Shown one piece after another: positions 10,831 through 28,895 of a stretch of 64,000 nucleotides of DNA. A model generated the notes under the pieces. The model did no database searches. It had not been told where the DNA came from and saw only the letters and a list, made by a program, of their open reading frames with translations. The stretch comes from Undibacterium sp. (GTDB lineage Bacteria; Pseudomonadota; Gammaproteobacteria; Burkholderiales; Burkholderiaceae_D): assembly GCA_030645915.1 (NCBI GenBank), contig JAUSNO010000017.1:1-64000 (forward strand). The letters are read 5' to 3'. Each line of letters opens with the position of its first letter. Position 1 is the stretch's first letter. The position numbers were made by a program, and so were the translations under genes.

Positions 10831-12072
10831 TTAGATGATCGATTTAGGAATGTAATCGGTCTGCTCCGTATATACGATCTCTTTATTTTTGAAAGCTGCA
10901 CGCCATACATCGATTGTAATTGGCAAGATATTTTTGTAAGCTGATTCTGTCGTAAAGTAACGAATAATATCGTTATCGATGAATGCCACCCAAAGTTCGC
11001 CTCTCTCTCCTCGCATGACGATTGCTTCCATGATGGTATATAAGCCGCGCACCCCGCCAACTCCGATGGTAGCGATAAATGGATCCAGATTATCCTGTTC
11101 GCCTATTCCCTGAAAACATACGCGAAAACTCTCATAATGAATTCCCAAAAGACGGTAAAGGCGTGCCAAATCCAGTTCATCCAAGATTGCGCCATCAAAT
11201 ATGAGGTCGCGCTTTCGAATAAATGTCCCACCGAACCAAGCGCCCATGCCCCTCCAGTAACTACATGTTCCTGTTTCCTCAATTTGTATAATATGTGTGT
11301 TTTCACTAAGGCGTCGACGAATAACGATCTCGCATATTTCGCTAAGATGCTCACTCGACTTTCTGAAATATGCCAAGTCTGAGGCCACAATCCGCGCATA
11401 CCCATTAATTGTTCCGGTATGTGCCCCGGAGTACACTTTTAGGTCAAATAGAAATCCTGCAGGGCCTACTTCATATATGAATATCGAACCGCCATTCATT
11501 CCACCGTCATTGACGGTCTCCCAATTACCCCACCAAATTGGCACGCTCGGGCCTGCATGACACAAGGTATCCACGGAAGAAACCAGAGCTTCCTTTAACC
11601 CTGCTTCTAACTTAGCCGTTAAAATGCCACGAGCCGTGGCTTTATCTGAATTTTCTATTTCTTGTTCATAGCTAATAATTCGCCGTCCTCGTAAATCGAA
11701 CGGCAATACCTCTGGACCACCATGAACTGTATTCTGAATCAACAAAACCCGATTCCATCCAAGTTGGGCTATTGCATATCCGAGTTCTATAAGCACGTTG
11801 GGATTTGGTGTTGGTCTTCCTCCCGATTCCGCATTAATAATTGAAACATCACATACAAATATATCGGCCAACGTGATTTTAGCAAAAATGCTGTCTGATA
11901 TCTGAGGAGAACCTGCTTGCCCCTCTGTATCACGGTCTAGGACCGGCTCGATAGATTCAGTTTTGTCCTTGTGAATGTTCTTAAGCGCACGTTCTAGCGC
12001 TGTCTGAATGAATCCACGATTAGTTGAATTTGGCAAGTCCGATTGCCATGAGTAAAAAACTGTTCGTTTCAT
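10831..12072 (-). CDS. TIR-like domain protein with unknown C-terminal domain
   Basis: A 413-residue soluble protein. The N-terminal ~170 residues begin TVFYSWQSDLPNSTNRGFI and contain PNPNVLIELGYAIAQLGWNRVLLIQN. The NPNV-x-x-ELG motif (Glu96 the likely catalytic residue) is typical of the TIR-like nucleotide-hydrolase group that includes effectors of CBASS and Pycsar systems. The C-terminal ~220 residues match nothing I recognise and may sense a signal or phage product. It is separated from the ThsB-like gene by 365 bases that include a terminator, so it is probably its own transcription unit. NAD-consuming antiphage activity is an inference from the family. Confidence 0.7.
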   Translation of the reverse strand: MKRTVFYSWQSDLPNSTNRGFIQTALERALKNIHKDKTESIEPVLDRDTEGQAGSPQISDSIFAKITLADIFVCDVSIINAESGGRPTPNPNVLIELGYAIAQLGWNRVLLIQNTVHGGPEVLPFDLRGRRIISYEQEIENSDKATARGILTAKLEAGLKEALVSSVDTLCHAGPSVPIWWGNWETVNDGGMNGGSIFIYEVGPAGFLFDLKVYSGAHTGTINGYARIVASDLAYFRKSSEHLSEICEIVIRRRLSENTHIIQIEETGTCSYWRGMGAWFGGTFIRKRDLIFDGAILDELDLARLYRLLGIHYESFRVCFQGIGEQDNLDPFIATIGVGGVRGLYTIMEAIVMRGERGELWVAFIDNDIIRYFTTESAYKNILPITIDVWRAAFKNKEIVYTEQTDYIPKSII

Positions 12073-12277
12073 CGAGATTCCAAATAATAAAAGCTAACCA
12101 TTGACTTGAGGCACCAATGAATTAAAAGTCGGTCATGTTCATCACGACAGCGCACTTGTCATCAAACCTCCCTCCTCACTCGCATTTTTTTCATTCTGGG
12201 TTACAAGAATTGACCGAATCGACAAGCGATCTAAATCCCACCTCGTCGGCGGCTAGTGTGGCAGAAGGCGCGAACAT

Positions 12278-12325
12278 AAGATTGAAAATTCTTGTATCGG
12301 TGGTTCGATCCGCACCGATTCACCA
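12278..12325 (+). pseudogene. Decayed 3' half of a tRNA-Phe gene
   Basis: The sequence TTGAAAAT with flanking AAGA/TCTT resembles the tRNA-Phe anticodon arm (anticodon GAA). The stretch ending GGTTCGATCCGCACC and CACCA resembles its T arm and 3' end, with one base deleted and several changes. A hairpin plus T run follows 18 bases later, as is usual after tRNA genes. The D arm and 5' acceptor strand are not recognisable, so it cannot be functional. Such 3' tRNA fragments are often left by integrating elements. Confidence 0.5.
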
Positions 12326-12342
12326 AGAAATTACCTTACAAA

Positions 12343-12370
12343 ACGCCAACCGGTGATGGTTGGTGTTTTT
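12343..12370. terminator. Terminator-like hairpin with T run
   Basis: ACGCCAACC pairs with GGTTGGTGT (one G-T pair) around GGTGAT, followed by a run of five T on the plus strand. The minus-strand side also has four T after GGCG, so it may end the ThsB-like operon coming from the right as well as the former tRNA. Confidence 0.7.
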
Positions 12371-12437
12371 GTTTGTTGAACAAAAAGTCCTTGTGTCAGG
12401 TCTGTTTCCGGCGCGCTGTGGCATCTCTTCTTCGGCA

Positions 12438-12878
12438 CTATTTTCCAGCTGTCTTCGCAGCCTTCTCGACCCAAGTGCCAAGGTTGTTATATCCGTCGTC
12501 CTTTATCCAGAGATAAAAGTCGTAACCAGCAGGAAGTTGCCCGCATCGCTCTGACGTGTTCCCATTCAAGTCCTTTATCTTGCTAATATCTATACCCAAC
12601 AAGCCGTTGCCTCTCGCGATGCTCTGTTCGATTTCGTATTTCACCCATCTGCTTTTGCATGTCTGATCGCCCACAAGCACCACAGTGACCGACGTGCCTT
12701 TTAGTTGATTATCGATCCAATTCTTGATCGCTTGATCACCCGCCTTTTTTACTTTTTCAAAATCAGCTTTATCAATAAACCCGGCAGTATCTTCACCTTT
12801 TGTGATTGCACTATTTCGAACAACCATTGCCCGAGAAACGTCTTCATATTTGAAGCTAAAAAAAACCTTCCTTGTCAT
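12438..12878 (-). CDS. ThsB-like TIR protein (Thoeris sensor/signal-synthase family)
   Basis: A 146-residue single-domain protein of the DUF1863 (MTH538 TIR-like) group to which Thoeris ThsB belongs. It opens KVFFSFKYEDVSRAMVVRN, closely like the ThsB N-terminus. It keeps SVTVVLVGDQT and the catalytic-loop motif SRWVKYEIEQSI, with Glu82 in the position of the family's catalytic Glu. In Thoeris, ThsB detects infection and makes a cyclic ADP-ribose isomer from NAD+. The ATG at 12876-12878 has a strong GGAGG ribosome site, which rules out the seven-codon longer frame. The gene follows the SLOG gene by 80 bases in the same direction, as expected for a cooperating pair. No SIR2-containing ThsA lies in the window. 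Confidence 0.85.
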   Translation of the reverse strand: MTRKVFFSFKYEDVSRAMVVRNSAITKGEDTAGFIDKADFEKVKKAGDQAIKNWIDNQLKGTSVTVVLVGDQTCKSRWVKYEIEQSIARGNGLLGIDISKIKDLNGNTSERCGQLPAGYDFYLWIKDDGYNNLGTWVEKAAKTAGK

Positions 12879-12958
12879 ATTTCCTCCTTTGTAAAACACT
12901 CACATTGTATTAACACCGTGACCAGTGAGAAATCGAGCAGCCATACGGGCAAAATTTA

Positions 12959-13543
12959 TTACTTCACTTGATCTCGCTTTTCCGTCACCACGATACCCAG
13001 CTCCTCATGAAACAATCTTGCAAAATCAATCCTGTCATCAATTTGGCCGAGTTGATCCGCCAATTTCATAGCCGCACCGCCCGGTGAGCGTACCGCAAGC
13101 ACCTTCGCGCTAGGGTTCATTTTCTGAAACAACTGATATTCATCGATAACTCCATCCATTCCACCGATGAACACTGCAGCATCGAATGGACCAGAAAGCA
13201 TCTCTGTCCTTAGGTGTGCTAGGCTCTTAGCGCGATCGTCTTCGACTGCGTCAATAAAGACCACATTGCCGAAGCGAGCATTTTCATCCGGAAAAACGTC
13301 TTCAAATAATCGACTCTGATACAAAATCACCGCTTTCGCATATTCAATACCGAGATCCTCACATACGGCCCATACCATGGGAGTAATTGCAGGATGTCCA
13401 CCCCATACGAGCAATCGCCGACCTAGACAAACTGTCAGCAACTCACGCACTGCAAACTGAATCAAAAATGGATTCGCCGTCAGGTGATAGTCGCCTCGAC
13501 CGGCAACTGGAACACTTGCCGAGAGAAATATTCTACGTATCAC
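12959..13543 (-). CDS. Stand-alone SLOG-superfamily protein (nucleotide-signal sensor)
   Basis: A 194-residue Rossmann-like protein of the SLOG superfamily. It starts RRIFLSASVPVAGRG and carries GRRLLVWGGHPAITPMV (residues 41-57) and AAVFIGGMDGVIDEY, the glycine-rich loops expected to hold a nucleotide ligand. In type I Thoeris a SLOG domain at the C-terminus of ThsA binds the ThsB signal. Here it is a separate protein without a SIR2 or membrane effector. The start is a GTG at 13541-13543, inside a GTGA overlap with the stop of the TIR gene and preceded by GGGAGG. The longer open frame upstream would need a TTG. Translational coupling predicts a stable complex or fixed stoichiometry with the TIR protein. 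Confidence 0.75.
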   Translation of the reverse strand: MIRRIFLSASVPVAGRGDYHLTANPFLIQFAVRELLTVCLGRRLLVWGGHPAITPMVWAVCEDLGIEYAKAVILYQSRLFEDVFPDENARFGNVVFIDAVEDDRAKSLAHLRTEMLSGPFDAAVFIGGMDGVIDEYQLFQKMNPSAKVLAVRSPGGAAMKLADQLGQIDDRIDFARLFHEELGIVVTEKRDQVK

Positions 13544-14682
13544 ATCGCCTCCCAGCCGCCGAAGTCCCAAACAGCTTCAGTCTTCTTGACCCATCTTGTG
13601 CCTGGCACTTTTTGTGCAAGCCATTCCATATGCACCTGCCAACTGCGTTTCAATCCGAAATGGTCATACACAACCGCACTTTCTTCGCCACCTGCCCGTT
13701 CAAATGTTTCTTGCAGAAGGAGTGATGTTGGAACCCCAATTGTCGGTTGAATAACGAGTTTTCGACCAGATCGAAGTGTCAGATACATCGAACGATTAGA
13801 GCCGACGCAATCAATTTTCCCTTCTACCTGCTCTATGGCATCCTGAACCGCAGTTACCATACTTAAGTGCCGGGTAGCGTGACTTAAGCTCCTCACGTTC
13901 TCAAGCTGAGAACAAATTCTTTCGATTGCAGAAAACCCAAGCTGCCCAATATCGTCTAGCTCATCCGGAACCAACTCCACAAGACTTGCAGTTCCAGTAT
14001 ATATTGACGGCGTTGTATCAGGCCATTGAACGCGCAAAACACCAATGCCTTTTGCCAATGCGCGACCATATTCAGCGCTTGTCCAGCGGCTCTCAAAATA
14101 TTTTGGTGTCTCCAGCATGATCAACACATCAACGTCGCAAAGTTGATGCCACAAGGTCTCCTGAAAGTCCACAGCTGGGCCGATTCCCTGCGTATCCAAA
14201 AAAACATCAAATTGCCTTGCCGACAGCTCTGCGAAAAGCTGCACCGCAGCGGCTGTTGCTTCATTTCGGCGATAACTTAAGAACACTCGTCGTTGCCTTG
14301 GTAGCAGTCCAACACACTCTAACAACGCAGAGAAAATACGATCTGGAGACACCTTGTCAACGAAAAGACAATTTAATCGCCGCAAGCTCAAAGGAATCTC
14401 GGTTGCGACTGACGCGTCGTTAGATGCGACAGGCAGGATTGAGATCGATTCACAGTCCATAATTTTAGAAATGTCAATTTCTACTGAACCAACGCCCCCG
14501 AAAAAAATTGCTGCCGCTGCGGCCCTACTGCCTGGCCTAAACTCAGCAGGTTGAATCGCCAAAGAAATTTCTTCGCCAAACTTTAGCTTGAATCGCCAAC
14601 AAGTGTCGGTAAGTTGCTCTTCCAATTTGCGCAGTTGATCAACAGTTGGCGAGCCAAAAACAGCGAGTTCATATAGGGGCAT
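13540..14682 (-). CDS. TIR-domain protein with unknown flanking domains
   Basis: A 380-residue protein with a central TIR domain at about 131-220: RRVFLSYRRNEATAAAVQLF, FDVFLDTQGI, DVDVLIMLETPKYFESRW, then TSAEYGRAL with Glu204 placed as the catalytic Glu of TIR NADases. Residues 1-125 and 225-380 match nothing I recognise. The C-terminal part (LTLRSGRKLVIQPTIGVPTSLLLQE) could be a separate beta-rich module. The ATG at 14680-14682 has a GGAGG site. A longer frame lacks one. It overlaps the SLOG gene by 4 bases. The likely role is NAD+ cleavage, either as the effector switched on by SLOG ligand binding or as a second signal synthase. That choice is inference. Confidence 0.8.
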   Translation of the reverse strand: MPLYELAVFGSPTVDQLRKLEEQLTDTCWRFKLKFGEEISLAIQPAEFRPGSRAAAAAIFFGGVGSVEIDISKIMDCESISILPVASNDASVATEIPLSLRRLNCLFVDKVSPDRIFSALLECVGLLPRQRRVFLSYRRNEATAAAVQLFAELSARQFDVFLDTQGIGPAVDFQETLWHQLCDVDVLIMLETPKYFESRWTSAEYGRALAKGIGVLRVQWPDTTPSIYTGTASLVELVPDELDDIGQLGFSAIERICSQLENVRSLSHATRHLSMVTAVQDAIEQVEGKIDCVGSNRSMYLTLRSGRKLVIQPTIGVPTSLLLQETFERAGGEESAVVYDHFGLKRSWQVHMEWLAQKVPGTRWVKKTEAVWDFGGWEAM

Positions 14683-14815
14683 CTTGCCTCCTTTGTGAGG
14701 TTGAATAACGTTTGCATGCCATCTAGGCACCTAGCATGCAACTACCCAAAAATTCTACAGAAAATCCAAAATATTTACCTGAATGGCAACGTTACCGACA
14801 CCATCATTACCTGTT

Positions 14816-15319
14816 CTATCTAAGTCCGTTTACGTAGGTTCCGCCAGTGGTTTTTCCTGTGGGGAAGTATGCGAGCCCACCTACACCTGCCGGAGTAATT
14901 TGAGGATATAACTGTAAATATTCATTCCCATGATGCTTCCCGGATGAATCCGTCGTTGGAATTACAATAATTCGATCGTCCCCCTTCTTCCCATCCGCAT
15001 AGCCAATTTCCCATGGGCACCATCTAGATTGAGTTGAGTTCCCAGTCGCAAGAAACAGAAACCAGTCGGCTGAAGCAATGCGACTTTTAATTCTGCTAGC
15101 AGTTACGCGATCCGGAGACTGCGGCATTTCCGAGTCCTGCCAGTCAATGTACACATCCCAGCCAGCTTCCTTCAAAAGCGTTTGAAGACCTATTGCAAGT
15201 AGCTTGTCGATATGACTGTGGCACAAAAATGCTGTTGTCTGTCCCGCACGCGGCGTCAGGCTCTTGTGTATCACACCCCGTTGCGATGCACGTGTCAGGT
15301 CAGATTGAGTAATAGCCAT
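14816..15319 (-). CDS. Small TIR-domain protein
   Basis: A 167-residue protein made almost entirely of one TIR domain. TTAFLCHSHIDK is the first strand and loop, WDVYIDWQDSEMPQSPDRVTASRI follows, and NSTQSRWCPWEIGYADGKK carries Glu104 in the WCxWE motif, matching catalytic TIRs that use NAD+. There is no signal peptide or membrane segment. It sits 133 bases upstream of the 380-residue TIR gene, same strand. Multiple TIR genes beside one SLOG gene echo Thoeris loci, where several ThsB proteins with different triggers feed one effector. Whether it shares a promoter with its neighbours is not clear. Confidence 0.82.
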   Translation of the reverse strand: MAITQSDLTRASQRGVIHKSLTPRAGQTTAFLCHSHIDKLLAIGLQTLLKEAGWDVYIDWQDSEMPQSPDRVTASRIKSRIASADWFLFLATGNSTQSRWCPWEIGYADGKKGDDRIIVIPTTDSSGKHHGNEYLQLYPQITPAGVGGLAYFPTGKTTGGTYVNGLR

Positions 15320-15495
15320 ATGGGTCTACATTAAGGTTAAAATTTTCAATAAACACATTCGGCATGAATATTCTCGAGCTCTAATAATATTTCCGAATAA
15401 ATCGACTACTATGACCGGATGCGAAATCTGGCTCGCATTTCCGCCACTTCCTCCTCTTTTCCTACAGAGCCAACTTGAACAAAGGTACGTCAGTT

Positions 15496-17130
15496 TCACC
15501 ATCGCCGAAAGCGTTTGCGTGCTTGGTCGACAAAGCGTCCAACGTACCGAATTTCACGACGCGCTGCATATGCATTGAGTCCTTTCGAGTCGGCAATAGT
15601 ATGGGCGTCTGCAAGGTACTGAGCGCCCTTCCACCAGTGACCAGTGACTACATTTGCGAATGCCGCTTTCACGAGAGCTCGCACCATATCACCATGATTA
15701 ACCAGCATCCCTCGCATTTTTTGATCGCGAAGGAGGTCAATACCCTCTTCCAGGGTCCTTCGTCCCTTTCTATATTCGCGATTTTGCACCTGCGCAAACC
15801 CTAATTCGCAAATAATGGTTCCGAGATCTGATTTCGATTGTCCTTGTGAAAGGCTAACCTGAAAACTCCTTTCGTACAGCTCAACGGCCTCTGTGCAACG
15901 TTTTTCCAATAAACAGGCACTTGCACGAACGGCCAGAATTCCCGCTGCGGCATGCGGCTCGAGCTTCACTGCTTGATCAAGACATGAGTGCACTTCAGAC
16001 AACACGTCCGCGCGCATAGGACTGCTAACCATTTTTGCCAAGGAGTAGTAAGAGCTACCAAAAGCTCCCACGGGATCCACAATTGAAGCACCAAAATAAT
16101 CAGTTCCCGATACAGACAAATGGCGATCTTCCCGGATCGCGCGCCTGACCTCGGACAACGTTACCAGCGTCGGCATGGTTCCCATACGAGTGTGTCCATG
16201 ATGACCACTCCAAGAAGCAGCACCATGCCAAGTCGTAAGTGCTGCGTTCCAAGCACTCAAAATTTCTGGCTCTCGTACAACAATTTTCCCGGCAAAATCC
16301 AGAAGCGGCGTGACCATCAGCTCGCGCATTACCAACCAAGCCCACGCCAACTTTTCGTCCATATGATCGTCAAACATCCGACGTCCTTGCGCCGTCATGA
16401 GCGAGAGCACGCTATTCATGTCAATTGAAGGAGAGGCATATTGATCAAATCCCGAATTTGGCAAATCCAGGAAGTGCATGGGCGTCTTTGATTGCTCACC
16501 AAACTTGCGATCCCGACTCCTCATCAATCTTTCGACAAGCACGTCCGGGCGAACCTCGGCAGAACTTACTCTCCACCGTTCAGCATGCGACTCGTTTAAC
16601 AAAATTGCTATCACTGCACTCGATATCTCTGCATCGTCGAGCTGGTCAGGCTGCGACGTCGGCCCCAAAAATCCAAAATCGAGCAAACGTAAAATTTGAA
16701 TTTGTTGGGCGAATCGAAAGGCTTTGCTACACAAACGATAAATCGGCTTTCCCAAGATCGCTGCCTGGTACAGCTCAAGCTCGAAAAACGTGCTCGTCAG
16801 CTGAGTTCCGTCGAGATTTAGGAGATGCCCTTGACCTTCCCCAAATAGGATAAATATGAATTTTTCGCAAGACCTTACTTGCTGAAGCAGGTACTTTGCA
16901 ATCGACAGATTGCTGTAATGAGGTGCCTTAAGTTCAGGACGTTGCGCCTCTGACACGAATGCACCACCATGCTCACCGGCCGCTTTAGCGATCTCCTTTC
17001 GAAGCTGAGCTACCTCGTTGGTCTCCAGCCCTCCACCCTCTTGTGACAAGTATGTGCAAGATGACACAAATGCTTTTGCCACAATTGGCAGCGGGAACTT
17101 GTCGAATGGTTCGGTTTTAAGGTCACTCAT
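15496..17130 (-). CDS. DUF4062-like N-terminal domain plus helical-repeat C-terminus
   Basis: A 544-residue soluble protein. Residues ~15-160 resemble the DUF4062 / TIR-related fold: AKAFVSSCTYLSQE, LRKEIAKAAGEHGG, VRSCEKFIFILFGEGQG and STFFELELYQAAILGKPIYRL. The last block has the Glu-containing strand-helix typical of this group. The C-terminal ~200 residues carry TPR-like pairs (AAGILAVRASACLLEKRCTEAVELYERSF, LGTIICELGFAQVQNREYRKGRRTLEEGI). Similar architectures occur in defence and NLR-like proteins, where repeats detect a target. It is the most upstream member of the minus-strand cluster of TIR-type genes, 176 bases before the small TIR gene. The function is unknown; a sensor role is a guess from architecture. 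Confidence 0.6.
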   Translation of the reverse strand: MSDLKTEPFDKFPLPIVAKAFVSSCTYLSQEGGGLETNEVAQLRKEIAKAAGEHGGAFVSEAQRPELKAPHYSNLSIAKYLLQQVRSCEKFIFILFGEGQGHLLNLDGTQLTSTFFELELYQAAILGKPIYRLCSKAFRFAQQIQILRLLDFGFLGPTSQPDQLDDAEISSAVIAILLNESHAERWRVSSAEVRPDVLVERLMRSRDRKFGEQSKTPMHFLDLPNSGFDQYASPSIDMNSVLSLMTAQGRRMFDDHMDEKLAWAWLVMRELMVTPLLDFAGKIVVREPEILSAWNAALTTWHGAASWSGHHGHTRMGTMPTLVTLSEVRRAIREDRHLSVSGTDYFGASIVDPVGAFGSSYYSLAKMVSSPMRADVLSEVHSCLDQAVKLEPHAAAGILAVRASACLLEKRCTEAVELYERSFQVSLSQGQSKSDLGTIICELGFAQVQNREYRKGRRTLEEGIDLLRDQKMRGMLVNHGDMVRALVKAAFANVVTGHWWKGAQYLADAHTIADSKGLNAYAARREIRYVGRFVDQARKRFRRW

Positions 17131-17250: not shown

Positions 17251-17967
17251 TTACCCCTTCCAAACATCAGCAGTTAGCGGCAGCGCGTTGAGTTCAGCGC
17301 GGGCTTCACGCCAGCTTGGATAATGCTCATCAAGAATTGCGACAAAGCGATCACTATGAGTCGGTTCGATTAGATGCGCCATTTCGTGAACGATCACGTA
17401 CTCAAGCAAATCCTTGGGTTTCTTCACGAGTTCAGTATTCAAACGAATATGTCCCGCATTGTTATTGCAACTACCCCACTTGGTTTTCATTCTTTGCAGA
17501 AAATACCCTGTGACGTTCACCTTCAGCTTCGGTTCCCATTTTTTAATCAACTGAGGGACTAATTTATGAAGCAGGGATTTATGCCATGCATGGATCACCT
17601 CTGCCCGTTTTTTTGCGTCGCTGTCGGGCCGGATGATCAATGTGATTCGCTTATGATCCAGCTTGACCATAGGTTTGGAATCTTGATGTTCAACCGTCAT
17701 CAGGTAACGCCGCCCCCATACATAGTGGCTTTCACGTTCGATAAACTTGCGAGGCGATTCCCTCGCCTGATTTTCCAGTTTTTTCTGCTGCTCCCGAATC
17801 CAGCCTAGCTTCGAGATCGCATAAGCTCTGGCGACTTCCAGACGGGTTGCACTGGGGGCAACCAAGCTCACGCGACCATCTGGAGGGTGCACGCTGAGGT
17901 GAACATTTTTGATGTCTTTTTTCGTCACCAATATGTTGATCTCGCCGAGTTGGATGGTCTCTGTCAT
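17251..17967 (-). CDS. YgjP/SprT-like zinc metallopeptidase linked to type I restriction genes
   Basis: A 238-residue YgjP-type (DUF45, M48-like) metallopeptidase. HEMAH at 194-198 and His205 (EPTHSDRF) are the zinc ligands, with Glu195 catalytic. MKTKWGSCNNNAGHIRLN just before is the family's second signature. It is cytosolic, with no signal peptide. The start overlaps the hsdR stop by one base (TAATG), so it is the last gene of the restriction operon. Homologues are frequently found next to hsdR in type I systems, but their role there is not established. Control of HsdR by proteolysis, as ClpXP does elsewhere, is one possibility. Confidence 0.9.
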   Translation of the reverse strand: MTETIQLGEINILVTKKDIKNVHLSVHPPDGRVSLVAPSATRLEVARAYAISKLGWIREQQKKLENQARESPRKFIERESHYVWGRRYLMTVEHQDSKPMVKLDHKRITLIIRPDSDAKKRAEVIHAWHKSLLHKLVPQLIKKWEPKLKVNVTGYFLQRMKTKWGSCNNNAGHIRLNTELVKKPKDLLEYVIVHEMAHLIEPTHSDRFVAILDEHYPSWREARAELNALPLTADVWKG

Positions 17968-20900
17968 TAGTATCCCGGCTGATTCTTGATGATCTCAAAA
18001 AGCGCAGATGTGGCGTCCCGATCACGGTCCAGGATCGGAAATATTGCATTGAGCACTTGCGCTTCACGAGCCTGGTCGCCCTTCCATCCAGCTGGCGCAT
18101 TTTCCCGCACTACGCTGTCTAATCGAACCGCTAGAAGAGCTTTGTCTGTATCGCGATCAGGGTATTCAAATTTACCGCCTGGCAGACCCGCCAGATTGTT
18201 GTAGATCACGGTCGCTTCACGTTTGCCATGCAACTCTGCTGGAGTTCCATCCTCCGGCAACTTGGCCGCCAGCCGCCTTACCAAATCTTCGGCCTTACGC
18301 AGAAATTCTTCATACGTTGCAGTATCTGTGCGACTCTGTTTGATCAGATCACCTAGCAGCTTGGACATCTGTTCGTAAAACCTCGGGTCGGTAAGCTGAT
18401 CGCGGATGATGGTTTTGCGAACGTTGTTAATAATCCCCTCGGCAACTGCATTCTTTGAGAGCTTGCCTTTTTCGTTGAGTTTTTTTGCAATCGCGTCGTG
18501 GATGCCTGTCTTGATGATCAACTCGGTTAACGACATCTCGCCCAGTTCCCCCAGCTCTGTCGCCGGGTCGGCCTGAATGTAGGTATTGATGAGGTGGCGC
18601 ATATCTGTCTCAAAGGGCTTGATGTCCAACTCCTCACCTGAATGCTTCTTGATGGCTGAGCGAATCTCAGCGTAAAACTCGACTTGTTTTTGCAACGTCC
18701 CAGCCTCTGCATCAGAATAGCCCGCTTCGGTCAAGTCCTGAGCAAGGTCGGCGAAGGCCCGCGCAAATAGTGCCACAGCCTTATAGAACGACACCCGCAG
18801 CGCCTCGGTTTCGGTCAATGCGTTTGCATTGGCCGCGTCACCACAAAAGTAATGCAGAAACTGCTCCACCTCGCGGGGTAGCGGCACTGGCTCACACAAG
18901 TAGCCCAACGCTTGGCGCGCGTTGTCCAGCTGTTTCTTGCCTTCTTCCAACCAGTTTTTAAGGCGCACGTTGTTATCGCCGCCATTGCCCGCATCGATAT
19001 CCAGTTCGTCTGAACTGTATACCGCAATCGCCTGCTGCACGTCGCCAAACAGTTTCTTGAAATCGACGATGTGGCCGTACTCCTTGTCATCTCCATCTAG
19101 TCGATTGGTGCGGCAGATGGCCTGAAACAGGTTGTGGTCGCGCAGCTCGTTGTCGAGGTAAATGTAGGTACAGCTTGGCGCATCGAAGCCAGTCAACAAC
19201 TTGCTCACCACAATCATGAGTTTTAGATTCGCCGGCTCCTTAACGAAGCGGCGCTTGACCTCGTCCTCATACTGTTTTGTCGTTTGGTTGTTTTTGAGAA
19301 CATGCTGCGTGTAGGTGTCGAATTTATAGCGCTCGTCACTATTAGCTGGCTCGCGCGAGATCGCGTTGTGGTTCGGTTCAAACGATGTGATGATTCCACA
19401 GTAGGTTCCGAAGGTCGTGTTCTGGAAAAGCCGGAAGTAGTGGCATGCATCGTAGATCGAAGCAGCCACCAGAATCGCCGTGCCGCGGTTGTTATCAAGG
19501 CGTGGTTTAGTGTCGAAGTCATGAATGATGCTGAAGATGATGCGCTGTTTGCGCTCTCCGGCGCTCATCAATGCCTCCATGGTCGCCCAACGCTTGCGCA
19601 GAATCGCTTTCTGAAAATTATTCAGCGTCTTGGTCTTCTTTGCAAAATACTCTTCGATCGCCTTTGGTGAGGTCAGCCTCTCCGGCACGTCGCGCGCATC
19701 GTATCTAAGATCCAGCACGACCTTATCTGCCACCGCCTGATGGAACTTATAGGTATGGATGTAAGTGCCGAACACATCGCGTGTGAGCTGTTTATCTTTA
19801 CGTAACAGCGGCGTACCAGTAAAGCCGATGAAAATTGCCCCTTCCAGCCAACGCTTCATCTGCTTATTCATATCACCGCCCTGGCTACGATGACATTCAT
19901 CTACGAAAACATAAACCTTGCCATGCACCTTTGGTGGCGTACCTTTCAGGTCGCTCACGTCGAACTTATGTATCAGTGCGCACATGAGTCGCGTGGTAGT
20001 CGCACCAAGTTGTTGTACAAAATCCGCCCGCGAGGCAATACGCGGCGATGGTGAATTCTCGCCAATCACACCCGCATTGCGCATCACGCCGACGATTTGT
20101 TTGTCCAGTTCATCGCGGTCGGTAATAACCAAAATGCGCGCCTCAGGGTCATGTTCTAGCAACCACTTGGCAATCAGCACCATCAAGATGCTCTTACCGC
20201 TGCCCTGGGTATGCCAGATCACACCACCCTCACGCTTAGCGATGCGCTCTTGCGCCGCCTTCACCCCGGCGAATTGATGTGGCCGAGGCACCTTCTTTTG
20301 ACCCGCATCAAAGATGATAAAGTTGCGCATCAGATCTAGCAGCCTATCCTTATTACAGAGCTGCGCCAGTGGCCGATCCAGTAGCGCACCTGCAGTTGGT
20401 ATCACACCTACTTCAGACGGCGTCTGATCTTTCCACTCAACAAAAAACTGCTCAGGCGTACCAGTGGTGCCATAGCGCAGCCCCTGCGAATCGCTGCCTG
20501 CCAACACTAGCTGCACCGTGCTGAAAAATCGTTGATTGAAAATTTCTTCTTGATTAGTGATGAGCTGACGCACCCCATCAGCCAGTTCCACCGAGCTGCG
20601 TTTGAGCTCGATTACCACGATGGCGATACCATTGATGTAGAGCACGATGTCCGGGCGACGCTCAAAACCACCTTTGAGCGTCACTTCCTCGGCCAGAGCG
20701 AAATCATTCTTCTCAGTGTTTACCCAATCAATCAGATGTACCGTTTCGTATGCCTGACCCGCAGCGATCTGCACCGGCACGCCGTAGCGCAATAGTTGGT
20801 AGGTGCGTAGGTTAGACTGATACAGAGTGATGCCAGTAACGTCGGCAGCCAACTCCAGCTTTTGCAAAGCCGCAGAGATATGGGCAGACGAGTAGCCACG

Positions 20901-21068
20901 CGCAGCAAGATTTTCGCGCAGGATAGCCGTCTCTATTGAACGGTTATTCTCTCGTTTATTCCACTCACCGAGATAACGGAAAACGAGACAATCGGGCTGC
21001 GTTTTGTCGGTGAATAGGTCGATGACTCGGTTTTGCGTCTTGCGTTCTGAGCGTGGTTGTTCATGCAT
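17967..21068 (-). CDS. hsdR: Type I restriction enzyme R subunit (HsdR)
   Basis: A 1033-residue HsdR. The N-terminal nuclease has the PD-(D/E)xK pattern: RRPDIVLY with Asp140, then VVIELKRS with Glu154 and Lys156. Helicase Walker A (TQGSGKS) is at about 287-293, DECHRSQ is motif II, and GFTGTPLL and the later [11 protein letters not shown] block are further SF2 motifs. The C-terminus holds the region that contacts the methylase core. It cleaves unmethylated DNA after ATP-driven translocation. The ATG at 21066-21068 overlaps the end of the upstream DUF262 gene by 8 bases. The longer frame starting 10 codons earlier is not needed. It belongs to the operon of hsdM, hsdS and two DUF262 genes. Confidence 0.97.
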
Positions 21069-23442
21069 GCGCTGGCTCCCTGCCACTGTCATTCGCAATA
21101 AATGCTACGAGTTTCATTAGGTACGACTCTATTCCTTTTGGATCGACACGCCATTCTTGCCTGGTCTCGCCTGCCAAAAATTCCAAAGCACGGAGCACAT
21201 TGGCTACATTCTCCTGAATCTCTGCACCTTGGTCTTCATAACCTACGACATAACGGCCCTTGTCAAATCGAACTGAAAACCGCAGAGGTAAATCATTCTT
21301 AGTGCATGAAATATAGAAACGAGGCTCCGTATCTGCGTCGCTGACATCTGCGTAGTACATAAATTCCAGCGGAGCATACTTAGCCATGTCTACTCTCAGC
21401 GCGAAATAAAGTGCGTAGGTGAAAAGCTCAGCGTGCATGCCGTTCATTTGGGTCTTGCTTAACAGGTATATCTGCCCAGATGGGTCGAACCGAAGGCAAC
21501 GAGATTGGCAATAAGCGATTGCCAACGGCGTTTTAACAAGAGCCTCGACCCAAGGTTCAAGACCCGAAGCGCTCTCAATGATGCCATCCATTTGCTTCGG
21601 AAGATCCATAGAAACATCGATCCTGTCAAAAAGATTCTTTACCACTTCACGCGCTTTACATGGGTCTCTCAGTAAACGCTTCCAGCTAGCCTGATCACCA
21701 ATAGAATTAACCAACAGCGATTGATTTCTACTCTTTGGCAATAAATAATTCCCCAAGCACAGCAGAGCTCGCTCCCACCGAAAATCAGGCAACTCTTTCA
21801 GTCCACGCTCATCAAACATAACGGATGCTTTTCCGAAATATTCCACAAATTTCCCCTGATATATTCGATGTTGTTCATTATCCCAATCATTGATCGGCGC
21901 CTCTGACGTAATGCCGCAATAATCCAGCAGGAACGCAATCTGGCCACGGAAGTAACCATGTGCCTCAGCGCGGTCGATAATATCACCCCAACTATCTTTC
22001 GCGCGGATCAGCTGAGCCTTCAGCATTTCCTCTTCGATTTGGTGCTTTGAGAAACCGGACGCCGTCGAGTTCACATCAGCAAAGTAATCGAGTATGGTAA
22101 GCGACTGAGGAAGCAAATCTTTAAGGCCACTCATGCTGCGCTGAAGATCCTCTGTACGATTGTATTCGGTGTTTTCCGAAAGGTTGAAGACAACTCGCAT
22201 CCAATTTCTGAACTGGCCACTATCATTTTTGCCAGAGTTAAATTTCAAGAACAGCACGTACGCCGCAAACTGAACAATTTCTGTATGTGAAAGAGGCCTC
22301 TGTGCAGAAACTATTCTTTGAAACTGTGCTCGTTCATTAAAGTGTCGACCATCTGGCAGATGCGTTCGCAACCCAGAACTGCCGTCGCTCCAGGCATCTA
22401 GCAACCTAATGAGGGAAAGCGTGAAATCCTCATTTAGCCAACTTCTGGCGTGAAAATCACCGTAGTTTGGCGCTCGAACGATAGTCCTCAAGCGATCGAT
22501 GTCTTCTACAATCCTGTCGCTATTTGTATCCCTGGTGATCAGGGCGACTGCGCGAAACACATTCATGATGGCACCGTCGTACTGATTACTCACATTATCC
22601 CGTGCACCCCAAAACAAGTCCGCCCAGGCGTTATCCATGCGCCAAGAAAAGTACTCTGCAACCGTGCTGTTTGTGTCAGCAACGTCCAATGAAATACCCG
22701 AAAACTGCTCTTTTAACTCGCGCTCATACCGTGCCTTGAATGTCTCGAATGGGGTAAGTGGCTTACCGCGCGAATTCATCTTGATGTATAGATCATCAGA
22801 TAAGCCGAAATCCTTCAGATCAAGTAACTCGAAAGTTATAGCTGGCTGCTTCTCGCTGATCAACCTCTCGAACAGATTGGAGGAAGACGCGAACCGGACA
22901 TGAATGGCATCCAACATGAAAAGCACGGATTGAATGGTTGGGTCTAAGCGCCAGCTACGAAAATACCAAGGCTGATCGGTAATCAAAGCACTAAGCTGGA
23001 TAACATCTGCAGGCATGTCTTCGGCTTTAAAACTGACGAAGGCGTCAAAGAACTCGTTACTGCTGGGCCGGACGCTGTAGGAAAAGCGCGACTTACCATT
23101 TGCCCTGAACATACTAGAGAAGACCTCCCACTTGTTATCCTTCCATGCCAGATACCAATGCAGAAGAAAAAGTGTCGTGAGCCGTTGCTGCCCGTCGAGT
23201 GGCAAGAATCGGGTCTCCTCGCCACCTTCCACACTGCCGTAAATAAAATCAAGGTTAAACGGCAATGACGGATCATCTGCCGGTTTGTTTAGTGCAACCT
23301 GAATCGCCTGGAGAAAGTCATCTCTAACCTCTGCTTCCTCCGGCCGCCCTTGAGCATAGTCACGCTGGATGATAGGGACGCGAATTCTGCCATGGCGATC
23401 CAGTAGCTGCTTGTAATTGATGCGACTATCCAATGTACTCAT
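21061..23442 (-). CDS. DUF262 protein, large form, embedded in the type I locus
   Basis: A 793-residue protein with the DUF262 (ParB-fold, GmrS-like) signature near its N-terminus: [12 protein letters not shown], and [21 protein letters not shown] with the DGQQR nucleotide-binding/hydrolysis motif. The rest is long and helical, with a C-terminal region ([38 protein letters not shown]) that I cannot assign. No clear DUF1524 HNH motif is visible, unlike its neighbour. It overlaps both neighbours, with ATGA at 23439-23442 and an 8-base overlap with hsdR. DUF262 proteins include GmrSD type IV nucleases, SspE and the RloF proteins of Campylobacter type I loci. A defence role that adds to HsdRMS is inferred. 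Confidence 0.85.
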
Positions 23443-25214
23443 TGGCCGACCTCCGTTTTACCGATAAAAAAACGGGACAAGGTCTCGGACATAACCTTCA
23501 AATAACCGTTGCAGTCCTCCTCCCCCCAAAACATCATGTTATCGACTTCAGGGCTATAGCATTTTAGGAACACATTGCGAGTACAAAGGGGGACGAAAAT
23601 TCCCGCTTGATCCAACTGAAGAAGCCGCTGTCGCTTAACGGCGAAAACCGCATTCTTGTAGCTCTTGTTTGTGTGTTCGTCGAGCAATGCAAGATTGGCG
23701 ATGCCATGGTCAGCGGACTCATCCGTACCTTCTTTAAAGTAGGCGATAATTCTGTCATACAACGGATCAAAGATCTCATTGACGGCATTAACTTGCGGCA
23801 GCACCATAAATGACTTGATGTCTTCCTGAAGCTCTGGTTCTGCGCGCATGGATTCAAGATATCTGCAACAGGTATCCAGCCATTTCACGCGCTCGGAATG
23901 GCGCTCTGGCTTGTCGGCGGCAACCGAGCGAACGTGCTCGATATTCCAGCTCCCATTTTTAAAACTGTCGAACTGGAAGCGCAGGTTAGACTGATTGTTT
24001 TCAAGCAGTGTTGCCACGTTAAATAACAACAGAATCGACTTAATTCTGGATGAAGGATATTTGAGCGCATCCAGCCTGTCTGCCACCCGTTCGCGGACTT
24101 CTAACTCGCTCAGAGGCCAGACAGCTTTTGCTTCAATCGAATGAGTGAATATTTCTTGTCGAAGGCGCCGCTGAAAAGTGCTTTTTGAGCTGTTGCCAGA
24201 AAACCCCCGAATCGTATTCAGCGATAAACCTTGGCTGACCAAAAACCCCACCATGTGGAACAGCACGCGGTCTTCGTACCATTCCTCGAGAAGCAGAAAT
24301 ACCTGCTTGATTTTTCGCCACTCGGCTTCAAGGGTTACTCCCGGTTGCTTCAACCGCATGCCAAAGGTAAAAAAGATTCCGTAAGGGTCATGTTTGAACG
24401 CCTCGGGAATGGTATCTTCACTGGCTACTAGCTCGAAAAGAAGGCCGATGCGATTCTGCGTTCGGTCCAGATCATTGCTGACGAAATACCAGAAGGCATC
24501 CGATTGCAGCGTTTTCTCTATATGGTCCCATTCGTAGGCGATCAGCGTTTGCAGACCGCGAGATTCCGTCTCATCTCCGTTGGACCGTTTCAGGAACAAC
24601 GCTCGAATCAGCTCATCATTCGTCAGCGCAATTTTACCGACGTTAAGCCGGGTAAAAACATCGACAGGGTGTTCTGTTTCTGCGATCTCATACCAGATGA
24701 CCTTCGCCTTGCCCTGAAAGGCGGATTTGATTTCCTCAAGCTCGCTCTCCTTGTCGGAAAACCAGTTTTCGATCGCATCCATTGCCTTTTTTAAATGGAA
24801 AAAATCCACGTTTTTACCGGCAATCTCATCTGTAGGTTCATCAAGGAAATTGAGGAGATCTGGCCGTGTTTCGTATTCGATAGAATAGATTGGCTGCCGG
24901 TATTTGTCCATTAGACGCCCGTTGAAGTGGCGCAGAATCAGCATCAAGGTGGTGAGGCGTTGCTGCCCGTCGACCACTTCATACCCACCTCCCTCTGAAA
25001 TTCGCATGACTAAGGGTTGCAAGCAATAAAAGTCGTCAGGCTGCGGATTACGGCGTTTGGTAAATTCGCGAATATCCTCTAGCAACTGGGTGACTTGCAA
25101 AGACGTCCAACGGTAGCCACGCTGATAGGCCGCAATGAAATAGCGCTGAGGTTTTCCATCGCTATCTAGCCGAAGTTCGTTGACTGTCTTGAGGGTAATG
25201 GCCTGCTCGTTCAT
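23439..25214 (-). CDS. DUF262/DUF1524 protein (GmrSD- or RloF-like)
   Basis: Starting at ATG 25212-25214 this is 591 residues. That start overlaps the hsdS stop (ATGA). A much longer open frame upstream is antisense-like arginine-rich sequence and was discarded. DUF262 motifs are AYQRGYRW (residues 30-36) and [13 protein letters not shown] (81-93). The C-terminal part has NIEHVRS and a NLALLDEHTNKSYKNAVFAVKR block, which fits the HNH-type DUF1524 domain (His near the first motif, Asn in the second). This is the GmrSD layout: an NTP-driven N-terminal domain and a nuclease domain. GmrSD enzymes cut modified phage DNA. The first His motif is not textbook, so activity is uncertain. Confidence 0.85.
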   Translation of the reverse strand: MNEQAITLKTVNELRLDSDGKPQRYFIAAYQRGYRWTSLQVTQLLEDIREFTKRRNPQPDDFYCLQPLVMRISEGGGYEVVDGQQRLTTLMLILRHFNGRLMDKYRQPIYSIEYETRPDLLNFLDEPTDEIAGKNVDFFHLKKAMDAIENWFSDKESELEEIKSAFQGKAKVIWYEIAETEHPVDVFTRLNVGKIALTNDELIRALFLKRSNGDETESRGLQTLIAYEWDHIEKTLQSDAFWYFVSNDLDRTQNRIGLLFELVASEDTIPEAFKHDPYGIFFTFGMRLKQPGVTLEAEWRKIKQVFLLLEEWYEDRVLFHMVGFLVSQGLSLNTIRGFSGNSSKSTFQRRLRQEIFTHSIEAKAVWPLSELEVRERVADRLDALKYPSSRIKSILLLFNVATLLENNQSNLRFQFDSFKNGSWNIEHVRSVAADKPERHSERVKWLDTCCRYLESMRAEPELQEDIKSFMVLPQVNAVNEIFDPLYDRIIAYFKEGTDESADHGIANLALLDEHTNKSYKNAVFAVKRQRLLQLDQAGIFVPLCTRNVFLKCYSPEVDNMMFWGEEDCNGYLKVMSETLSRFFIGKTEVGQ

Positions 25215-26395
25215 ATCAACCTTGTCCTTCCTGTGAGTAATTCCTGCATCATGGCCTGCTTGAGGGCTTGGGTCTTGGTGCGGCGGGCTTGCAGGGCGGC
25301 GAGTTCGGTGTCCATGTCGGAGAGGATGGCGGCGATGGCGGTTTGCTCCTGCAGCTCGGGAAACGCGAAAAGAATTGGATTCAAATCCTTCGCGTGAATA
25401 TGCGGCTGTGCGCCGCCAGTCTGTGCTTTGTAGATAACCTGCTGTTTGCACAGTAGGTGATAAAAGACGAAATCGAGGCAGTAGAATTCCGATTCGCTGA
25501 TGGTAGAGCAGTCTGACGCGAAAATTGGTGCATCGTAGAGCGCTACATAACCAGCGCTTGCGCCGGACGCGCTGATCGTGATGGTGCGGCCAAATCGATT
25601 TGCGGAAGCGTGAAAATAGGCTGGCTGCTTGCCGCCTGCGATAACTGGAATGTCTCCCGGCAACAAGGTGGTGCTCGTGATGAGCTGCCCTTTTCGAATC
25701 TGAACCACTTCCCCCAAACGCTTCACTTCCCACTCCCCACTGAACCCGGGAAGGCGGGTTTGGCCGGTGAGGAGTTGCTGCATAGCTGCTACTTTGAGGC
25801 CCTTCTTTTTGGCGATGAGACTATCCAGCCCGCCCAGCAGCGCATCCACATCGCTCAATGCCATTGCGATGGCGCGTTGTTCGGTTTCCTTGGGAAAGGG
25901 AACAGCAATCAAAGCGATTCGACCAGTATTGAGATTCAACTGGTCATTCCCAGCGGCAACGACTTCTCTAAGCCGACGGATTTGAGAGTTGAGGAAGAAA
26001 CACAGGAATCGTTTTTCGCCCGCACTCTGGCTCACCAAGGCAGCAATACCATCGTTGGCACAGCAAGTAATCGCGAGCACTTTTGACACACCGAGAGTTC
26101 TCGCACCGCTGTTCACTATTACCAATGTGCCGTCTTGCAATGTGCGGCTAAGCTGTGAGCCTTTCTCCGTAAGTTTCGTGGCAGTGTCTGTCACAAATAG
26201 CTGGTCGGTCGGGATATTTGTGAGCGACCCAACGGTAAGCCAGGGAATAAAATTTCCGTTGAAGTAACGTGCGTCACCTGCCGGTCGTGGTGATCCACCA
26301 CGAACTACATTGCCCAACTCTCCGAGACACTTTACCTCCCAATCCTCCGGGATGACGCCGACCTCGGTCTGTTTGTAGCCGGGTTTCACTTCCAT
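25211..26395 (-). CDS. hsdS: Type I restriction-modification specificity subunit (HsdS)
   Basis: A 394-residue specificity subunit with two target-recognition domains, each followed by a conserved helix. TRD1 covers about residues 15-175, with EVGVIPEDWEVKCLGEL at its start, and the first helical spacer ends AAMQQLLTGQTRLPGF. TRD2 covers about 220-370, with the second helix ending AMMQELLTGRTRL. The repeated helix endings (QLLTGQTRL and ELLTGRTRL) show the usual internal symmetry. It picks the bipartite DNA site for methylation and cleavage. The recognised site cannot be read from sequence. Its start lies inside the end of hsdM (10-base overlap), and its stop overlaps the DUF262 gene. Confidence 0.96.
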   Translation of the reverse strand: MEVKPGYKQTEVGVIPEDWEVKCLGELGNVVRGGSPRPAGDARYFNGNFIPWLTVGSLTNIPTDQLFVTDTATKLTEKGSQLSRTLQDGTLVIVNSGARTLGVSKVLAITCCANDGIAALVSQSAGEKRFLCFFLNSQIRRLREVVAAGNDQLNLNTGRIALIAVPFPKETEQRAIAMALSDVDALLGGLDSLIAKKKGLKVAAMQQLLTGQTRLPGFSGEWEVKRLGEVVQIRKGQLITSTTLLPGDIPVIAGGKQPAYFHASANRFGRTITISASGASAGYVALYDAPIFASDCSTISESEFYCLDFVFYHLLCKQQVIYKAQTGGAQPHIHAKDLNPILFAFPELQEQTAIAAILSDMDTELAALQARRTKTQALKQAMMQELLTGRTRLI

Positions 26396-28887
26396 ACCGC
26401 TCCCATCTTTTTGAGGTGTCCGTCCACACGGGCGGCGAGTATGGCTACCTCATCGGTAAGTTGGGGCAGTGGTGTGGCGTAGCGCTCGGCCAGTTCGCGA
26501 ATGCGGCCGGTGAGGGTTTGCGAGACGCGACCCAGCTCGCCCTGTACGGCGACGGCCAGGTGAGTCATCCACTTGTCGTCTACCACCAGGGTTTTGATTT
26601 GCGCCTCGGTCAGTTTGGGGTATTTGGCATCGATTTTTTTGTCCAACTCGTCTTGCGCGGCTTTGCGCTTGGCCTTGACATTAGTTTGCTGTTCGAGCAA
26701 CTTCGCGTAAGCTTTCAGCGCTACGCACTCTTCTGCATAATCCGGGTTTGATTCGACTTTTTTGAGCGATGCTTTCACACTCTTTGCAGTGACCTTCGGA
26801 GATTCGCCCTCCTTGGCCTCATTGGCTTCGGCAAGCAGCCCATCTTCGCCGCTATGCTCCTCACGCATTTCGTCGAGTTGTTGTTCCAGCGTGGCGAGCT
26901 GATTATCCAGCGTGGCTAAAACATCGCGCTCTGCAACAAAGTATTTGGCGACCAAGATGCTGGCGGGAAGCAGGTCTGACTTGAAACGGCGTTTGCCTTT
27001 GAGGTAGTCATGCGACTCGGGCCAGACCAGTTTATTGCTTTTATCCTTGACCTGCACGATCTCGCGCGGCTGTACGCCCTTGGCCCAGCCGTCGGCTGCA
27101 ATCAGGTAGGCGTCGTCTTGCAGAGTGGTGGCCCAATAGTCCATCAGGTGTTGGTAGATGTCGTAGGCGTCGAGCAACTTAGCGGGCTTGAAGGTGGTGA
27201 GCAGCGCCTCTGCTATGGTCTCAATTAGCGCCTTGGGGTGGCCGTCTTGCCCAAAGGCGGTGAGCTGCCGCGTAGCGACTTTCCGCCATTTGGCAAAGAG
27301 TTGCGTGGCAGTTTGGTTGAAGGTGGTGAATTCGGCGTGGCCGAAGATGGCTGGCTTGACCTCGAATAGCGGCAGCGTGAGGCGGGCATAGCCAAGCCGA
27401 CCAGCGGACGCAAACAGCGCGGCGCGCACACCGGGCAGCACCCGCCAGTAGGCGGCCAGCTCATTGTCGGGGTCGTCCAGATCGCGCTCTGGAATACCAC
27501 CGCGTAGGTGACCGTCGATGTCTTGCAGATCTTCTGGGTCAGTGCTGTCGATATAGCGCGGCAGGTTGAGGTTGAAGTCGTTCTTGGGATCTGCAATTTC
27601 GCTGAATGGCACTATACGCGCGTAGTGTGGGTTGCCAATGTCTTGGCGCATGAAGGTGTCGACGATTTTGTGGATGTCTTGCTCGCGCAGGCGGTTTTTA
27701 TTACCGTCTTTGATGAAGGCTTTGGCCGCATCGATCATGAACACGCCCGCTCTGGCGGTGGCGTTTTCTTTGTCCAGCACCAAAATGCAGGCCGGGATGC
27801 CGGTGCCATAGAACAGATTGGCTGGTAGTCCGATAATGCCTTTGAGAACACCGGAGCGCACCAATTTCTCGCGGATGATGGCCTCGGCATTGCCGCGAAA
27901 CAGCACGCCGTGCGGCAAGATGCAGGCAGCTTTGCCGCTGCCACTTTTCATGCTGCGAATGATGTGCTGCAGGTAGGCGTAGTCACCCTGCTTGGTAGGT
28001 GGCACGCCCCAGGTGAAGCGTTGATACGGGTCGTCAGCTGGAGTAAGGCCAGTGCTCCAAGTCTTGTCAGAAAACGGCGGATTGGCAACCACGTAATCGT
28101 ACGTGCGCAGGCTTTCACCATCTTTGAACTTAGGCGCGGCCAACGTGTTGCCAGAGAGGATATTGGCGGTTGGGAAGTCATGCAAAATCATGTTCATGCG
28201 CGCCAGACCCGCCGTAGTTACGTCTTTCTCTTGCCCTTCCAGCGTGATGCGTTTACCCGCCTGAGCTGCCACCTTCAATAACAAAGAGCCCGAACCACAG
28301 GTAGGATCGTAGGCGGTAGTAGAGGCGATGGTGTTATCCGGAGAAATGCCAATTACGTTGGCAAGTATGCGGCTGACCTCTGAAGGCGTGTAGAACTGGC
28401 CCTTGCTCTTGCCGCTCTCGCTGGCGAAGTGCCGCATCAAGTATTCGTAAGCATCGCCCAGGATGTCGTCATGCTCGGCACGGTTTTGTGAAAAATCGAG
28501 CACTGGATTCTGAAAAATACCGATCAGGTTGGAGAGTTTCTCCACCTTGTCTTTACCTTCACCGAGCTTGTTAGGGTCGTCGAAATCGGGAAAGTCGCTG
28601 CGGGCGAGTCGAGCATTCGCATCCACCAGCGGCGCGATGACCTGTGTATTGATCTTCTCGCCGATATCGCTCTTGCCCTTGAGCGCAATCATGTCTTTGA
28701 AGCTCGCGCCCTTGGGGATGATCACCGGCGGGGCGAAGTCGTCGCTGTCTCCATACTTGTCGCTGATGTACTTGATGAACAACATGAACAGGACGTAGTC
28801 CTTGTATTGGCTGGCATCCATGCCACCGCGCAGTTCGTCGCAGGAGGCCCAGAGGGAAGAATAGAGATCTGATTTTTTGATTGCCAT
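26386..28887 (-). CDS. hsdM: Type I restriction-modification methyltransferase subunit (HsdM), long form
   Basis: An 833-residue HsdM. An N-terminal helical domain (SSLWASCDELRGGMD) comes first. SAM-binding motif I is DPTCGSG at 194-200, and catalytic motif IV is NPPF at 269-272, as for N6-adenine methylases. After the methylase core there are ~300 extra residues with a charged coiled-coil region (LEQQLDEMREEHSGEDG, KAKRKAAQDELDKKID) that the ~500-residue HsdM forms lack. It methylates adenine at the HsdS site and protects host DNA. An AGGAA site precedes the ATG. The WYL repressor gene ends 8 bases upstream, so hsdM is the second gene of the operon. Confidence 0.96.
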   Translation of the reverse strand: MAIKKSDLYSSLWASCDELRGGMDASQYKDYVLFMLFIKYISDKYGDSDDFAPPVIIPKGASFKDMIALKGKSDIGEKINTQVIAPLVDANARLARSDFPDFDDPNKLGEGKDKVEKLSNLIGIFQNPVLDFSQNRAEHDDILGDAYEYLMRHFASESGKSKGQFYTPSEVSRILANVIGISPDNTIASTTAYDPTCGSGSLLLKVAAQAGKRITLEGQEKDVTTAGLARMNMILHDFPTANILSGNTLAAPKFKDGESLRTYDYVVANPPFSDKTWSTGLTPADDPYQRFTWGVPPTKQGDYAYLQHIIRSMKSGSGKAACILPHGVLFRGNAEAIIREKLVRSGVLKGIIGLPANLFYGTGIPACILVLDKENATARAGVFMIDAAKAFIKDGNKNRLREQDIHKIVDTFMRQDIGNPHYARIVPFSEIADPKNDFNLNLPRYIDSTDPEDLQDIDGHLRGGIPERDLDDPDNELAAYWRVLPGVRAALFASAGRLGYARLTLPLFEVKPAIFGHAEFTTFNQTATQLFAKWRKVATRQLTAFGQDGHPKALIETIAEALLTTFKPAKLLDAYDIYQHLMDYWATTLQDDAYLIAADGWAKGVQPREIVQVKDKSNKLVWPESHDYLKGKRRFKSDLLPASILVAKYFVAERDVLATLDNQLATLEQQLDEMREEHSGEDGLLAEANEAKEGESPKVTAKSVKASLKKVESNPDYAEECVALKAYAKLLEQQTNVKAKRKAAQDELDKKIDAKYPKLTEAQIKTLVVDDKWMTHLAVAVQGELGRVSQTLTGRIRELAERYATPLPQLTDEVAILAARVDGHLKKMGAVWK

Positions 28888-28895
28888 TGATGTTC

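Follow-up and report, generated by a model that had tools for sequence, protein, structure and literature searches.

Here, we describe six open frames, labelled A to F and all on the minus strand, in the first 64,000 nucleotides (hereafter the window) of contig JAUSNO010000017.1 (positions 1-64,000) from Undibacterium sp. (GCA_030645915.1, a genome of 4.17 Mb), and propose that four of them, in the order E-D-C-B, form a type III Thoeris operon. Using curated family models and gene neighbourhoods, we show that the core of the locus belongs to type III and that its ThcB4 and ThcA genes are paired. The explanation as a whole, which joins the operon assignment to a mechanism, an accessory role for F and a bystander status for A, has in our estimate an even chance of being correct, and this one estimate also covers the E-D-C-B operon; we infer antiphage activity and every step of the mechanism. 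An earlier reading of the sequence alone had described the island as TIR or TIR-like proteins of 413, 146, 380 and 167 residues with a SLOG protein and a DUF4062-like protein. All six genes lie where this sequence-only reading had placed them, and its TIR and SLOG labels for A to E are borne out by Pfam scores above the cut-offs. It had further called the island a TIR-based antiphage locus of unusual composition. Family membership and co-occurrence uphold the first half of that description, while the composition proves to be one already classified, since the NCBIfam models identify C as ThcA and D as ThcB4, both of Thoeris type III.

Indeed, protein C (12959-13543, 194 residues from a GTG start, 203 as the mechanical open reading frame) scores 227.4 bits on the NCBIfam model of ThcA (NF058525, cut-off 110), and protein D (13540-14682, 380 residues) scores 396 bits on that of ThcB4 (NF058526, cut-off 220). 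In Pfam, C belongs to SLOG cluster3 (PF18180, 220 bits, cut-off 25), with STALD as a weak second family (E 0.2), and D carries a TIR_2 domain (46.2 bits, cut-off 28). The two genes overlap by 4 nt, provided that C starts at its GTG. On either side stand small TIR proteins: E (14816-15319, 167 residues) has a TIR_2 domain (45.7 bits, cut-off 28) and reaches 235 bits on the ThsB model of PADLOC, and B (12438-12878, 146 residues) matches ThsB_TIR (81.7 bits, cut-off 21.2). Both score weakly against the model of ThcB4, and models of ThcB1-3 gave no match in the NCBIfam scan of window proteins. PADLOC assigns B, D and E to the ThsB type; C and F are not covered by its models. The island is dense, as had been claimed: the whole genome holds three TIR_2 matches and one ThsB_TIR match, and three of these four fall inside 2.9 kb here.

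The pairing of D and C is kept in nearly all of the loci compared. We searched genome contigs with a seven-row ThcA profile and used the best 80 of 192 confirmed relatives; together with two viral-contig relatives, six annotated plasmid loci and the window, they make 89 loci, in which genes were called by a simple longest-open-frame scheme. Calls for ThcB4 were obtained in 84 of them, against 82 for ThcA and 78 for small TIR proteins. Counts below are over the 78 loci with both core genes, the 11 that miss one core gene call being excluded. In 77 of the 78, ThcB4 immediately precedes ThcA on the same strand, the sole exception (L059) having other frames in between. At least one further small TIR gene lies within 6 kb in 70 of the 78. 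A Duganella locus (L013) keeps the order E-D-C-B of the window at 76-78% identity, and another Undibacterium locus (L012) has E-D-C at 90-96%. The neighbourhood comparison on which the sequence-only reading had made its proposal depend thus speaks for it, as far as these genes are concerned. Relatives of E with at least 50% identity on plasmids are carried by ThcA plasmids in 12 of 14 cases, among the matches listed (40 of 69 records). Few genomes carry the system: two of the 369 that were searched in the class, including that of the window, have ThcA, as do 29 of 72,556 plasmid records, and four of 5,426 E. coli genomes contain at least 80% of the Enterobacter version.

Around this core the neighbours vary. 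Within 6 kb, a SLOG(cluster2)-patatin protein occurs in 18 loci (the window lacks it), at least one gene of an Nmad2-MazG_C-UDG module in 33, the unnamed families f12, f13 and f30 in five, and F in three; all four groups are absent from 36. Of 120 genes selected from the flanks of these 36 bare cores, we scanned 74 with Pfam and saw no recurring effector family among them, the commonest families being TIR_2 (5), phage integrase (3) and subtilase (2). With 36 bare loci and no recurring effector nearby, the output of the system would therefore lie within the TIR proteins, ThcB4 and ThcA. By these counts, what stays constant in type III would be one or more small TIR proteins, ThcB4 and ThcA, and no other gene.

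The Trp and Glu of the ThcB4 TIR domain (W-x-x-x-E) are kept in 84 of 84 proteins, and the TIR Glu, which we take to be the catalytic residue, in all 69 B-type and all 31 E-type small TIR proteins. A structure of ThcB4 predicted from 57 sequences (predicted local distance difference test, pLDDT, of 92) shows an alpha/beta N-terminal domain, the TIR domain, a long helix and a C-terminal alpha/beta domain. In Foldseek, its TIR part resembles the TIR domain of SARM1 (TMt 0.67) and DNPH1 (TMt 0.69), and the other matches listed, for the N- and C-terminal domains, are mostly long alignments of low TM-score. ThcB4 is a probable NADase partner of ThcA. B matches PDB entries 6lhy and 9b7d, named as ThsB1, a putative cyclic ADP-ribose synthase, at about 1e-28; E and B are both probable sensors of infection and makers of a messenger.

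For ThcA, we aligned 82 of 83 proteins, one being too short. All 82 have Arg121 and Glu144 (numbering of the 203-residue frame), and 81-82 have the GG-M-x-G block. An Arg and a Glu also stand at the aligned positions in the SLOG domain of a Cupriavidus SIR2-SLOG protein. In profile comparison, ThcA reaches a probability of 50 (P 1.6e-4) against ThsA-type SLOG, for which one target sequence was used, and 8.5 against the SLOG domain of the SLOG-patatin proteins. The SLOG domain of ThsA is reported to sense the messenger made by TIR proteins (PMC11204291, PMC7272460). On the strength of this likeness to the SLOG half of ThsA, its closest match, ThcA is probably the messenger sensor, and by the same analogy ThcB4, its coupled partner, would be the NADase.

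We can thus propose the following course of events. The small TIR proteins E and B would sense infection and turn nicotinamide adenine dinucleotide (NAD+) into an ADP-ribose-type messenger; ThcA would bind it and switch on its translationally coupled partner ThcB4, whose TIR domain would destroy NAD+ and lead to abortive infection. Type III would then be a ThsA split over two proteins, with a TIR domain in place of SIR2. F would bring into this circuit a TIR-like NADase of the DUF4062 kind that has a TPR-like arm of its own, in parallel with the SLOG-patatin protein or the Nmad2-MazG_C-UDG module of other loci, and A would stand by. In its boldest form, where ThcA gates ThcB4 in trans behind interchangeable TIR sensors and DUF4062 NADases plug in as sensor or effector, we put this forward as tentative, and by our own estimate it is more doubtful than the explanation as a whole. 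The suggestion of the sequence-only reading that several TIR proteins share one SLOG protein agrees with the family memberships and the co-occurrence reported here.

Protein F (15496-17130, 544 residues) is, as far as profile comparison and its relatives tell, a divergent DUF4062-type protein, that is, a putative TIR-like NADase, with a predicted TPR-like helical C-terminus. The DUF4062 label given to it earlier holds at a distance: F itself has no Pfam DUF4062 match at E up to 10, and its two Sulfitobacter relatives match at 7e-4 and 4e-4, below the gathering cut-off. The profile of F, built from window F and these two relatives (24-26% identical to it), was compared over its N-terminal part with a profile of 13 of 23 DUF4062 places and reached a probability of 93.5, where 50 column shuffles gave at most 4.4; the invariant ELEL.QA motif of F sits over the Glu region of DUF4062. 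Since the E-type TIR proteins fit the same profile at 90.8 (F against E-type TIR proteins gives 5.9), the match marks a TIR-like class. The profile searches that the earlier reading had called for gave TIR and SLOG families directly and DUF4062 through profile comparison. The C-terminus was modelled as a helical repeat from the single sequence and has a weak TPR match (14.5 bits); in that model (pLDDT 43) the N-terminus is unusable. A domain shared between F and the SLOG-patatin protein was considered and rejected, no BLAST similarity being seen at E 1.

Full-length relatives of F were found beside ThcA in every case, namely in the window and on two plasmids, from two bacterial classes. The plasmid search returned two of the 72,556 records, both from Sulfitobacter and both beside ThcA, and a Sulfitobacter F used as query returned the same two. 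Phage records held no relatives of F, and among viral contigs none was confirmed. In 398 genomes of the phylum, the window's own apart, and in 385 genomes of the class around genome G793, the matches were to the C-terminal, TPR-like part and came from three genomes in each search, at least two of the hits in that class sharing coordinates with hits of the phylum search; 194 other genomes of the window's family held no relatives. F is thus probably a rare accessory of type III Thoeris, as its linkage suggests, with a probable role as accessory NADase, sensor or effector. On one of the two plasmids (Sulfitobacter LC.270.F.C4, L007:7673-8587), an IS5-like insertion element stands between the ThcA and F genes, at the 5′ end of the latter.

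The linkage of F can also be read otherwise: the core would work as a known Thoeris system, and F would be a separate, stand-alone DUF4062 defence of the Swarozyc kind that shares the island by chance. We regard this as possible, though doubtful. According to a preprint of May 2026 (PMC13174449), DUF4062 is a family of TIR-like NADases whose members act alone, with a defence that senses the phage portal, and about 20% of them lie in predicted defence islands. F is absent from all 50 of the other ThcA genomes searched (50 of 66 were covered), and its place varies, before E in the window and after ThcA in Sulfitobacter. Against such a chance meeting stands the fact that every full-length relative adjoins ThcA and that none was found away from it in the 397 other genomes of the phylum, the 194 of the family and the 385 of the second class, matches to the TPR-like part aside. 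A further reading, that the whole cluster is a decayed or accidental pile-up of defence genes without a working system, could draw on that insertion element and on the Undibacterium locus mentioned above (L012), where the B gene was not called. We consider it very improbable: all six frames of the window are open, the active-site residues are conserved, and the gene order is kept across genera.

The type III assignment would stand unchanged if all TIR proteins, ThcB4 included, made signals and the effector role fell to ThcA alone, as a LOG-like SLOG enzyme that would, upon activation, attack a nucleotide. We judge this rather unlikely. The conserved Arg, Glu and GG-M-x-G block of ThcA resemble the LOG motif, the spacing from Arg to GG, counted by eye, is as long as in a LOG protein encoded in this genome, and the NCBIfam names, as we understand them, suggest that ThcA is an A-type protein, hence an effector, and ThcB4 a B-type TIR protein. 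However, the same Arg and Glu occur in ThsA-type SLOG and in 18 of 18 SLOG-patatin proteins, the block that follows GG exceeds that of the LOG motif by one residue, and the LOG profile match is poor (probability 0.2 against one LOG sequence, 1.1 against three). The LOG enzyme was accordingly demoted to a rival of the sensor role that we prefer for ThcA. Besides the family names, several observations weigh against our explanation. The match between ThcA and ThsA is modest and based on one ThsA sequence; eight of the 78 loci have no small TIR gene within 6 kb; some of the 36 bare loci end at contig ends (for example L031, L040, L058 and L066), where an effector may lie outside the sequence; and F occurs in just three of the 78 loci, two of which, the Sulfitobacter pair, belong to one genus, are 58% identical and are not independent.

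Protein A (10831-12072, 413 residues), with a CAP12-type TIR domain (PF10137, 26.1 bits, cut-off 24.7), is probably a separate neighbour outside the system. It lies 365 bp from B; none of the 71 plasmid records with a relative of A covers 80% of it, and among the matches listed (30 of 71) the relatives align with the N-terminal part of A, up to residues 155-275, and none of them lies on any of the 29 ThcA plasmids. A role for A as a core member is unsupported by this distance and by these relatives, although one counter-example exists, an N-terminal relative (42% over 126 residues) directly beside ThcA in a Duganella locus (L074). A pattern scan found a terminator-like hairpin of 13 pairs between B and A (12340-12369), which is weak evidence because such sites occur in the region at background number (11, against a shuffle mean of 8.8 with standard deviation 3.2); promoter-like sites do likewise. 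The idea of two systems side by side, also raised by the sequence-only reading, thus probably fits A alone, B to E forming the proposed type III operon and F being linked to the core in three loci.

Among known systems, the locus agrees with Thoeris type III in that C and D pass both curated cut-offs and in that adjacent ThcB4 and ThcA genes come with further small TIR genes (E and B), as in relatives; it differs by carrying F and lacking the SLOG-patatin protein. With Thoeris type I (a ThsB TIR protein and a SIR2-SLOG ThsA) it shares B, of the ThsB TIR family, and the presence of a SLOG protein, but its SLOG is a separate protein of cluster3, not STALD, and it shows no SIR2 domain in the proteins scanned. 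The scans, which covered part of the window's open frames, gave no SIR2-SLOG ThsA and no CD-NTase, just as the sequence-only reading had stated, and with Pfam no macro domain. Type I, type II (with a TM-macro ThsA) and cyclic oligonucleotide-based antiphage signalling (CBASS) were rejected on these grounds, A having just a CAP12-type TIR domain. With Swarozyc, F shares a probable DUF4062-type N-terminus and invariant Glu residues in the Glu-region motif; it differs by its distance, its C-terminus, predicted to be helical and TPR-like, where the preprint reports an HTH or winged auxiliary domain that binds the phage portal (PMC13174449), and its place beside ThcA.

Several neighbours deserve mention in their own right. 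The Nmad2-MazG_C-UDG module (for example in L041, L036 and L061) usually comes with its own third subfamily of small TIR proteins, found in 24 loci: the module was counted in 22 of these, and the other two (L022 and L027), which lay outside the count, show module genes as well. The module could be an independent TIR system that accompanies type III Thoeris. The SLOG(cluster2)-patatin protein of about 538 residues stands beside the core at L009:4136-5752, L008:2385-4001 and L010:3291-4907; RefSeq names it "CBASS cGAMP-activated phospholipase", and no CD-NTase is annotated in the stretches shown. On a Cupriavidus plasmid, a SIR2 protein with a SLOG-like C-terminus (L008:10784-12232) lies about 3 kb from a type III core, where the two types, I and III, may draw on common TIR sensors. 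In the window, the Thoeris genes are adjoined on the minus strand (17251-29846) by type I restriction-modification genes (HsdR, HsdS and HsdM), together with a YgjP-like metallopeptidase, two GmrSD-type proteins and a WYL regulator.

In the literature searched, the term "Thoeris type III" was met in one paper, for the target of the phage inhibitor TadIII (PMC12390725), and a paper of December 2025 treats Thoeris types I, II and IV and the messengers that they use (PMC12847820). Searches for type III components found no mechanistic paper, subscription literature being mostly outside the search, so that a published mechanism may exist. We found no paper besides PMC13174449 that names both DUF4062 and Thoeris, and its main text mentions Thoeris once, as a comparison. 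Two points may be new: the accessory of the DUF4062-TPR type, and the observation that small TIR protein, ThcB4 and ThcA are what stays constant in type III. The latter would narrow the search for the type III effector to a few proteins, and the question becomes whether the TIR domain of ThcB4 is the output, gated by ThcA. If our proposal is true, the DUF4062 NADases, reported as a stand-alone defence in the preprint (PMC13174449), would be linked to a messenger-based system.

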